A stretch of 64,000 bases of DNA. Origin: Streptantibioticus parmotrematis (GTDB taxonomy: Bacteria; Actinomycetota; Actinomycetes; Streptomycetales; Streptomycetaceae). How positions within the stretch are numbered: position 1 is the stretch's first letter; each line of letters begins with the position of its first letter. Below are positions 14,901 through 55,498 of this stretch, in pieces. The stretch spans positions 62,001-126,000 of the forward strand of contig NZ_JAINVZ010000021.1 in the NCBI RefSeq assembly GCF_019890615.1, in the 5' to 3' direction. Made by a program: the position numbers and the translations under genes. The notes under the pieces were generated by a model. It had not been told where the DNA came from, made no database searches, and saw nothing but the letters and a program-made list of their open reading frames with translations.

Positions 14901-15155
14901 GTGCCGAAGTCACGGATCCGCAAGAAGGCCGACTTCACCCCGCCGCCCCAGAAGGGCACCGCGATCAAACTGCACAGCGGGCGCGGCTGGGTGGCCCCCC
15001 TGATGCTGGCGCTGTTCCTGATCGGCCTGGCCTGGATCGTCATCTTCTACGTGACCACCGGCAGCTACCCGGTCGAGGCGATCGGCAACTGGAACATCGT
15101 GATCGGGTTCGGCTTCATCGCGGGCGGGTTCGTCGTCTCGACGCAGTGGAAGTAG
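14901..15155 (+). CDS. crgA: Septation protein CrgA
   Basis: The 84-residue protein starts [17 protein letters not shown] and has two membrane helices (about 33-52 and 65-80). The basic N-terminus with PKSRxRKK is typical of CrgA. In Streptomyces CrgA inhibits premature FtsZ-ring formation and coordinates sporulation septation. GTG 14901 has AGGAGAG upstream. Confidence 0.94.
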
Positions 15156-15309
15156 CCCACGCGGTGGGCGGGGCCCCGGAACGGGGCAGGACACGGGCCT
15201 GAGGCGACCGCCTCGGGCCCGTGGCGTCCCGCGCGCGTCGGGCCACGGGGCGCCCGTGCCCACGGTGGCCGCGTCGCGAGCCGCCCTGGCCGTCAACCTT
15301 CCGCCTCAC

Positions 15310-15498
15310 TTGTCCACAGAGTTATCCACAGGGACATCCACAGTGGGGAAAAGGTCGGAAGATCTGTGGATAACCTCCACGGCGTTGACGCCGGTGTGAT
15401 CGGTCGTACACGGTGATCTTGCTGGGCAAACAAGGGTTCGGACCGGCGCCCCGCCGTTGCCCACACCGTGCACAGGGCCCCGCACGGTCTGTGGATAA
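15310..15498. promoter_or_regulatory. Cluster of DnaA boxes outside oriC
   Basis: Three perfect TTATCCACA boxes occur at 15322-15330 (+), 15365-15373 (-) and 15490-15498 (-). Variants are TTGTCCACA (15310-15318), ACATCCACA (15334-15342) and TTGCCCACA (15457-15465). They fill the crgA-rhomboid gap of about 430 bp, which has no gene. High-affinity DnaA-box clusters near oriC are known in S. coelicolor to titrate DnaA and restrain initiation; that this is the equivalent is inference. Confidence 0.8.
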
Positions 15499-15553
15499 GT
15501 CGTACGAACGAGGGGATGGCCTGCCCGGGCGCCCCCATCCGGGGGAACGAGCG

Positions 15554-15598
15554 GGTCAGCCGTTGATGCGGAAACCGGCGGTCAGCCGTTGATGCGGA
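15554..15598. repeat. 19-bp direct duplication at the 3' end of the rhomboid gene
   Basis: GGTCAGCCGTTGATGCGGA occurs at 15554-15572 and 15580-15598, offset 26 bp. The inner copy holds the last codons and stop of the rhomboid gene; the outer copy duplicates them downstream. Confidence 0.85.
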
Positions 15599-16433
15599 CC
15601 ATGCCCGCGTAGACCACGCCGATGATCACCGCGAGCATGACCACGCAGGTCGCCCACTGCACCACGTCCCGGCGCTCGCGCGGCGCGTGCACCATCCCGT
15701 AGCCGACCACCGCGCCGGTGACCAGCCCGCCGATGTGCGCCCGCCAGTCGATGCCGCTCATGGTGAAGGTGAAGACCAGGTTGAGCACGATCAGGATGGC
15801 GATCGGCCGCAGGTCCGCCTTGACCCGCCGCATCAGCACGAAGAGCGCGCCCAGCAGGCCGAAGATCGCACCGGACGCCCCGAGGCCGAGCTCGTTGGAG
15901 GGCGCCAGCAGGAACGACAGCGCGCTGCCGCCGAGCCCCGCGAGCAGGTAGACCGCCAGGTAGCGCAGACGGCCGAGCGCGGCCTCGACCGGCGGGCCGA
16001 TCCACCACAGGGACAGCATGTTCAGCGCGATGTGCGGCACCTGCTGGTGCAGGAAGACCGCGGTCAGCAGCCGGTACCACTGGCCGTCGGCGATGCCGAC
16101 GACGTGGCCCGACGCCGGGTCGTACGCCTTGCCGATCAGCCCGAGGTCGGTCACCAGGGCGTTGCCGTACGCCTGTACGGCGAGGAAGACGGCCACGTTG
16201 ATCCCGATGAGGATCATGGTGACCAGGCGCGGGTTGGTGGCCACCGAGCCGCCTGCGATGGTGCGCGGCTGGACCCGCACCTGGGCGCGCCGGGTGTCGG
16301 CCACGCACTCGGGGCACTGGAAGCCGACCGAGGCGCTGACCATGCACTCCGGGCATATCGGCCGGTCGCAGCGGGAGCAGCGCACACCGGTCTCGCGCTC
16401 CGGATGCCGGTAGCAGCAGACCGCCTGTTCCAT
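15582..16433 (-). CDS. Rhomboid-family intramembrane serine protease
   Basis: The 283-residue protein begins with a cysteine-rich zinc-ribbon-like region (CCYRH, CSRC, CPEC, CPEC within 6-43) and continues as a rhomboid domain with at least six membrane helices. Catalytic Ser187 lies in GASGAIFG (185-192) and His233 in RAHIGG; His134 and Asn138 form the oxyanion site. It cleaves membrane-spanning substrates, which are unknown here. It lies between crgA and the cyclophilin gene, its usual Streptomyces position. Confidence 0.93.
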   Translation of the reverse strand: MEQAVCCYRHPERETGVRCSRCDRPICPECMVSASVGFQCPECVADTRRAQVRVQPRTIAGGSVATNPRLVTMILIGINVAVFLAVQAYGNALVTDLGLIGKAYDPASGHVVGIADGQWYRLLTAVFLHQQVPHIALNMLSLWWIGPPVEAALGRLRYLAVYLLAGLGGSALSFLLAPSNELGLGASGAIFGLLGALFVLMRRVKADLRPIAILIVLNLVFTFTMSGIDWRAHIGGLVTGAVVGYGMVHAPRERRDVVQWATCVVMLAVIIGVVYAGMVRING

Positions 16434-24399: not shown

Positions 24400-24901
24400 G
24401 AACCAAGGTCGCATCACAATGAGGCGGCCGCTCGTTCACCAGGAACGTTACGCGATGATCCCCATGAGCAGGGGCTATGCCAAGATCCCCGCTACACCAC
24501 TCGGTCTCTCGGTGGGACACCATCCGTTCGATGCGATGGTTCTCGACTTCATGCCTCGGGGCGAGCTGCGGCTGGCAGCCTGCCCGCCTCAAGGACCTTG
24601 CCAGCGGATCACCGTCGACTACCTTCGTGTCGGGGGCGCCTGAACCGTGGCTCAGGACGACTACGCCCACCTTCAGGTGATCAAACCATCTGACGATACG
24701 GGGTCGTGAGTCCGGCGGCCCTCACACCGTTATCCACAGCCTGCAAACCATGCAGATCTCCGCCGGTACAGTGGGTTCGCTGCCCAGCGTTGCGCTAAGC
24801 GAGAATCGGACGTGATCTGTAGCGGAGAGTAGCGGGTTTAGGGATGGGGATCGCGTAGGGACAGCACTGGCGACCTAACGTGCTACTTGGTGGATGGAGA
24901 C
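24400..24901. other. Gap without a supported gene
   Basis: Short open stretches on both strands here have no recognisable motifs. One perfect DnaA box, TTATCCACA, lies at 24730-24738. The ~100 bp before 24902 probably contain the promoter of the methyltransferase operon. Confidence 0.4.
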
Positions 24902-48202: not shown

Positions 48203-48823
48203 GCCCGGTTGTGCACAGGCCCGACTTCGATCTTGCTCGCTCGCTCTCTACGTGTAGTCGTAGTAATAGGGGGTGTGGATACCGTGGATAACCGGTTCCT
48301 GCCCAGGTCAGGGGTGATTTTTTATCCACCGCGCCTGTGGGTGGAGCCGGTGGACAACCCGGCTCCGCTGTGGACAGCCGGAAGTTGTGCACACCCGATG
48401 CACAGGTGACCCGGGGTTCTCCCCAGACTCGTCCCCAGGAATACCCACGTTGTCCCCAGGCCAATCCAGCACCTTGGTGTGACGGCTTTCACTCCATCCG
48501 GCGACGGGGCCCGTTTCGTTGCCGAACAGTGGACAGACCTGTGGAGAAGCTGTTCATAACTCCGGTCCGCCTGTGGGCGAGCGGTGGACAACCGCGAACA
48601 CCCTTGGTGGACAAGGTCGTTGTCCACAGTCTGTGGAGGAAGGTTAACCACATTTCCACACCCTTCTGACCAGCGGCGATGATCTTCCGGCGGACACCCC
48701 TGTGGAGGGATTCGGGACAACTCCGCTCTCCCCAGGCTGTGGACAGCGGATCCGGCCGGATTCTGTGGACGAAGGGGCCTCTGACCTGCGTATTCGAACA
48801 GCGGGGGGTGGGGGTGTGGATGG
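48203..48823. other. oriC: Chromosomal replication origin oriC
   Basis: The ~1.08-kb dnaN-dnaA gap has no gene and holds about 20 DnaA-box-like 9-mers. Among the clearest are TTGTGCACA (48209, 48385), TGTGGATAC (48274), CGTGGATAA (48283), TTATCCACC (48322), GGTGGACAA (48349, 48583, 48606), TGTGGACAG (48369, 48738), TTGTCCACA (48620) and TGTGGACGA (48764). They fall in two groups around a box-poor stretch near 48400-48525. This is the classic Streptomyces oriC layout, with no marked AT-rich unwinding element beyond short runs such as GATTTTTTATCC. Confidence 0.95.
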
Positions 48824-51103: not shown

Positions 51104-51602
51104 AGTGCACGCTCTCTCGATCGGTCGGTGGGGTGGGCGGTCGGCTCTCGGTCGGAGCGGGCACCGGCTCCGCCCCTGGTACCCGGGCGTCCCCGGCCTC
51201 CCACGAAGGTGTGATTCCTGGGGTGTGCGGGAAAGATGCCGGGTTGGGCCGGAGTCACCTGGGTTCGGCCACGGTAGTCAGCGCCGCATACGTGGTTCAA
51301 GTCGTTGTCCACAGGGTGTGTACAAATGTGCCATGCCCGGGCGGGCTCTGGTTCCGTGGGAGGGGTCGGCGCGTCGCGGCTCCGGCGCGGTTTGACCGGA
51401 TGGCGTAGCCCCGCGTACCGTGGCGAGGTCGAGTTGTCGATGGCTGCTGCCGCCTGCCTTACGAAGGGCACAGACCACCTCGAGTGGCTGGATCAGCGGT
51501 GCACCTAGGGCGTATCGCGAGACTTCGTGGGCGCACGGTGACAGCCAAGCGACGCCCCACGCCCGTCTCGACCGAGACGACAAGCATTCCTGGAGTCCCC
51601 GA
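51104..51602. promoter_or_regulatory. Divergent dnaA / rpmH promoter region
   Basis: About 500 bp without a gene. A perfect-consensus TTGTCCACA box lies at 51305-51313, in a locally AT-rich spot (GTGTGTACAAATGTGCC follows), consistent with autoregulation of dnaA. The rpmH leader occupies the right end. No -10/-35 boxes are assigned. Confidence 0.6.
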
Positions 51603-55471: not shown

Positions 55472-55498
55472 CTATCCACAAACGCAGATTCATCCACA
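55472..55498. promoter_or_regulatory. Two DnaA-box-like sites before parA
   Basis: CTATCCACA (55472-55480) and TCATCCACA (55490-55498) differ from consensus in the first two or three bases and lie 35-60 bp before the chosen parA start. They could couple parAB expression to DnaA level; this is inference. Confidence 0.4.

Follow-up and report, generated by a model that had tools for sequence, protein, structure and literature searches.

Within the 64-kb stretch of DNA that was analysed as a whole (hereafter the window), the septation regulator gene crgA on the plus strand and a rhomboid gene on the minus strand converge, and a cluster of DnaA boxes sits between them, 3' of both genes. The features of the locus, and the oriC box field used for comparison, are as follows.

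14901–15155, plus strand: crgA, encoding the septation regulator CrgA (PF06781, E 1e-27)
15310–15318, plus strand: predicted DnaA box TTGTCCACA, a sequence match
15322–15330, plus strand: DnaA box TTATCCACA, a perfect match, 12 bp after the box at 15310
15334–15342, plus strand: weak box ACATCCACA, third step of the 12-bp tandem; its minus-strand reading is box II of the triad in the match to profile R1
15334–15381, minus strand, opposite to crgA: best match in the window to profile R1 (described below), E 0.0043
15344–15352, minus strand: weak box TTTTCCCCA, which faces the box at 15334 head-to-head and is box I of the triad
15365–15373, minus strand: DnaA box TTATCCACA, a perfect match
15385–15400, minus strand: TTGACGCCGGTGTGAT, proposed to correspond in Streptomycetaceae to the palindrome ATTACACnnGTGTAAT
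15457–15465, plus strand: weak box TTGCCCACA, a sequence match
15490–15498, minus strand: outer DnaA box TTATCCACA, which is TTATCCACA or TTGTCCACA in relatives
15582–16433, minus strand: rhomboid gene (PF01694, E 6e-37), convergent to crgA
48209–48772, strand not assigned: oriC box field, with zero perfect TTATCCACA

The original prediction had described three perfect boxes and three variants within 190 bp, between crgA and a rhomboid gene. All six were found in place, the two Pfam matches confirm the identity of the neighbours, and the minus-strand TTTTCCCCA at 15344–15352 is an additional variant absent from that description. The box at 15310 counts as a full box, because a review gives TTGTCCACA as the strong DnaA box of S. 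coelicolor (PMC4285127). Four perfect copies of TTATCCACA occur in the window, the fourth standing alone at 24730, whereas 0.05 would be expected in a shuffled window and none of 100 shuffles reached four. The whole-genome count (7.40 Mb) is 27 perfect copies, and the crgA cluster is the only place in the genome where three of them lie within 190 bp; a random scatter of 27 boxes would give about 6e-6 such places. The poverty of oriC in perfect boxes, also claimed originally, is real: the region at about 48.2–48.8 kb contains a single perfect TTGTCCACA together with many boxes that deviate by one mismatch, and is without any perfect TTATCCACA. The cluster lies 33–34 kb from oriC/dnaA, the match to the C-terminal part of dnaA being about 34 kb off. 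Two other sites were seen in the window: upstream of dnaA, at 51305–51325, TTGTCCACA and TTGTACACA face each other and are probably autoregulatory boxes, and beyond oriC, at 55472–55498, there is a tandem pair CTATCCACA/TCATCCACA, perhaps a site like the S. coelicolor cluster H24. A small minus-strand ORF across the cluster (15293–15538) was rejected for want of a Pfam match, and a promoter reading of the TTGAC conserved in Streptomycetaceae was rejected since it has no conserved -10 at promoter spacing.

Conservation was analysed within the Streptomycetaceae by one CrgA scan of 84,980 species genomes, which gave 80 named CrgA loci (all Streptomycetaceae judging by their titles; one is titled Streptosporangium and two are unclassified assemblies). 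At least three copies of TTRTCCACA lie directly 3' of crgA in 80 of the 80 loci, and boxes were also present in 15 of 15 further Streptomycetaceae loci from the class sample described below. The pair TTATCCACA-N15..45-TGTGGATAA was present as a single copy in 13 of the 16 Streptomycetaceae genomes examined, against zero for a control pattern, and was located at crgA wherever its position was checked; the three genomes without it have the same boxes, spaced slightly wider. The segments AGATCTGTGGATAAC and TTGACGCCGGTGTGACC, between or beside the boxes, are likewise conserved in the family, and the box at 15365 is unchanged in 94 distinct Streptomycetaceae sequences, a set anchored on this box itself.

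To describe the region across the class Actinomycetes, we used a sample of 197 genomes, from 132 of which the crgA flank was taken. TTRTCCACA was found within 300 nt 3' of crgA in 75 of the 117 non-Streptomycetaceae genomes, with 0.24 expected from shuffles, and the control regions of all families gave 1/131 upstream of crgA and 1/131 at 300–600 nt downstream. Outside the Streptomycetaceae, most Actinomycetes carry 3' of crgA a 54-bp composite of a 16-bp palindrome, ATTACACnnGTGTAAT, and a DnaA-box triad, in which the palindrome is directly followed by a box, then by a middle box, which may point either way, and, about 22 nt on, by a final TGTGGAYAAC, whose offset is 21–22 nt in 71 of 95 loci. 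The palindrome with a correctly spaced box was detected in 82/117 genomes, representing 23 of 31 families, and in 0/20 shuffles; since the motif had been defined on the same 117 genomes that were counted, a hold-out test was made. Many families retain just one strong box. Boxes and palindrome are both absent in two sampled genomes (family f37), and in f17 the palindrome is absent and the boxes are present. A conserved facing pair TTATCCACA/TGTGGATAA was observed in genus g35 of f17 (L142:7675-7870, L144:7906-8052, L147:5039-5072), directly behind a DnaN-like gene in the case of the L142 copy and 30–34 kb from crgA in two genomes.

The hold-out test relied on R1, a sequence-only profile of 42 sequences from which Streptomycetaceae were excluded, and on family f18, with 35 genomes, two of which had contributed to R1. 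The profile matched 33 of the 35 genomes; in all 33 the best match follows the CrgA match on the same strand at a distance of 27–492 nt, and genome-wide just three weak additional matches were found. In one f18 genome (G017, L150:5015-5103) we also noted that a 90-bp stretch holds four perfect TTATCCACA; dnaA is about 36 kb away. The search was extended, with stricter filters, to a phylum sample of 90 genomes spread over Actinomycetota, where 16 of 17 R1 matches are located behind crgA and ten of the matched genomes lie outside the class. Conservation in relatives, which the original prediction had proposed as a check, is therefore strong in the Streptomycetaceae and, as the composite, in most Actinomycetes, and it extends to some non-Actinomycetes genomes in which a related composite stands behind crgA. 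Of the 43 genomes that have crgA, 15 gave a match, and of the 47 that lack it none did (Fisher p 3e-6), a contrast that is partly phylogeny because the latter are at the same time the more distant genomes, and in which 15/43 is a lower bound, since the stricter filters also missed the window's own genome. The module is 3' of crgA in every lineage that carries it, and the R1 matches place it in both orientations among lineages.

In other Streptomycetaceae R1 gave similar matches, the best of them lying antisense to crgA. The minus-strand order in the window is the palindrome-like GATCACACCGGCGTCAA, a strong box, the weak TTTTCCCCA 21 nt on and opposite boxes at 31 and 43. On this strand TTGACGCCGGTGTGAT agrees with ATTACACnnGTGTAAT at 10 of 14 positions; it lies about 11 nt from the box at 15365, a nearly fixed distance, and is the sole exact site in the genome. 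With weak scores and a shared order, the Streptomycetaceae module seems to be the class composite, inverted and enlarged with extra strong boxes. The window's own genome has a second cluster in the pheA–serS gap (contig C4 21067-21393; L123:4868-5194), which R1 matches with E 1e-5 and which shares the 12-bp tandem and the +0/-23 core with the crgA cluster, so that the two clusters seem, from their sequences, to have a common core.

The clusters D78, H69 and H24 of S. coelicolor are comparable: several strong boxes in a short stretch, less than about 100 kb from oriC and outside oriC, are also what is found here. These clusters were reportedly described by Smulczyk-Krawczyszyn et al. in 2006 (J Bacteriol 188:6184), in a work said to concern titration in one species and not known to include the palindrome, the fixed triad or the phylum-wide tie to crgA, and deletion of D78 is said to raise ori/end ratios. 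We take H69 to be, in all probability, the S. coelicolor copy of the crgA/rhomboid cluster, crgA being presumably SCO3854 on cosmid H69, and D78 to be the pheA/serS cluster, whose probable counterpart is the one found between these genes in our genome, because the S. coelicolor gene numbering suggests so. Within the genus, therefore, the cluster is probably already known as H69.

Reviews describe S. coelicolor and B. subtilis as keeping untimely initiation in check through clusters of DnaA boxes close to oriC (PMC4585315, PMC5742627), and this function, proposed for the module, is the only respect in which we liken the B. subtilis clusters to it. The core of the E. coli DARS sites has three boxes, with box I head-to-head with box II and box III in tandem with box II (PMC10380432, PMC5742627). 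The number and order of the boxes in the module are those of the DARS1/DARS2 core; its offsets, however, are +0/-10/-22 or -23, or the mirror image, while those of DARS2, read from the E. coli sequence, are +0/-14/-26, and no IHF or Fis sites are known for the crgA module. Searching the E. coli DARS2 locus with R1 gave no match, and owing to this and to the spacing we rejected membership among the DARS, even though the module could still act in a DARS-like manner. With E. coli datA it has in common an intergenic, origin-proximal box cluster with a site for a partner protein, thought to restrain initiation, but datA, whose DnaA boxes surround an IHF site, requires IHF and promotes DnaA-ATP hydrolysis, whereas the predicted partner site of the module is the palindrome; for the IHF-like proteins of actinobacteria no consensus site is known.

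When one mismatch is tolerated, a genome contains between one and three copies of the palindrome, and a reading as a parS-like multi-copy site was rejected for this reason. It is present as TTACACnnGTGTAA in the nrdR promoters of f19, f28 and f14 (L242-L251, L259, near position 2000), where it adjoins a DnaA-like box resembling CTGTCCACA; in the window's own genome, nrdR has neither a DnaA box nor an obvious palindrome at its promoter. Upstream of whiB-like genes of several families (L252, L253, L257, L260-L263, L265, L277) the palindrome is often followed by GTCAAG, with no evident DnaA box alongside, and one f4 genome has a one-mismatch copy between a jag-like gene and rsmG (L272:1501). Judged from sequence, the sites 3' of crgA and at the nrdR and whiB-like genes look like a very small replication–division regulon. 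As for the binding protein, our guess is WhiA: a WhiA ChIP paper (PMC3781837) mentions nrdR 12 times and the motif GACAC 22 times, and GACAC is found in the palindrome half-site in some lineages only. The conserved stretch TTGAC-N6-GTGAC was also considered as a site for MtrA, since its 11-nt period fits a GTnAC direct repeat; we disfavour this reading because the element is palindromic over the class, and crgA is not mentioned in the body text of the MtrA papers that were searched.

Given the observed boxes, geometry, conservation and place of the module, we consider it moderately probable that it is a chromosomal DnaA control site, with a set place behind crgA, close to oriC. Rather than a local oddity, it probably represents an ancient site governing DNA replication or the coupling of replication to cell division. 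DnaA would occupy the two head-to-head boxes and the third, tandem box, as well as the extra strong boxes of the Streptomycetaceae, and a second protein on the adjacent palindrome would form a nucleoprotein complex with it. This complex might hold or convert DnaA and in this way restrain initiation at oriC once the site is duplicated, like datA and D78, with the palindrome protein, WhiA being the first guess, providing an input from the division programme. The convergent genes and the occurrence of both orientations fit such a DNA-level site; the exceptions in f37 and f17 are points against it, as are the weak R1 scores behind the inverted Streptomycetaceae form, and the tie to crgA may, like the palindromes in nrdR and whiB-like promoters, be a sign of gene regulation instead.

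That explanation is the main rival, though we find it rather unlikely: DnaA and the palindrome protein would control transcription at the crgA 3' end and so tie crgA to replication, by a roadblock, by an antisense promoter into crgA or by an effect on the downstream gene. The phylum-wide association with crgA and the promoter palindromes speak in its favour, as do f4 and f11, in which the next gene, judged by eye, seems codirectional and starts nearby, but the module is flanked by convergent genes in most families, its orientation flips between lineages and the Streptomycetaceae have no conserved -10 at promoter spacing. A rhomboid homologue is convergent to crgA in 90 of the 91 loci where one was found. 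Being 3' of both convergent genes, the cluster is no ordinary promoter of either, and a simple promoter effect on crgA or the rhomboid gene is unlikely. The link to septation proposed in the original prediction thus fails as an ordinary promoter effect, and is indirectly supported by the way the module follows crgA and by the recurrence of the palindrome at whiB-like and nrdR promoters.

We regard as improbable a plain titration store, in which the number of strong boxes near oriC alone would matter. The extra strong boxes of the Streptomycetaceae and the published D78 phenotype (PMC4585315, PMC5742627) speak for it, and the titration near oriC originally proposed agrees with the S. coelicolor reviews, but a plain store leaves unexplained the palindrome and the order and spacing of boxes that are fixed over many families, many of which keep one strong box. 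Still less probable is that another protein mainly binds the boxes or that the site has another chromosomal role, such as segregation or nucleoid anchoring: the palindrome is outwardly parS-like, yet the motifs are textbook DnaA boxes and the few palindromes per genome are also found at promoters. An artefact of chance or composition is already refuted by the shuffles, the upstream and downstream controls, the hold-out family and the phylum sample.

To return to the DnaA control site, a wider reading that we offer tentatively is that DnaA and a division regulator, perhaps WhiA, couple initiation to division on the 54-bp module throughout the phylum, the palindromes at nrdR, a gene of dNTP supply, and at whiB-like promoters forming with it a small replication–division regulon that would be previously unrecognised. 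As far as we know from a limited literature check, the fixed palindrome composite across the phylum is undescribed. The coordination of replication with division is poorly understood in actinobacteria, and the reviews treat DnaA control sites of the E. coli type and, for two Gram-positive species, box clusters, giving no common structure. A short module that most of the class retains, in each case behind a septation gene, is a precise target: one small edit of it could probe replication control, crgA control and their coupling, and the palindrome provides a means of tracking down the partner protein.
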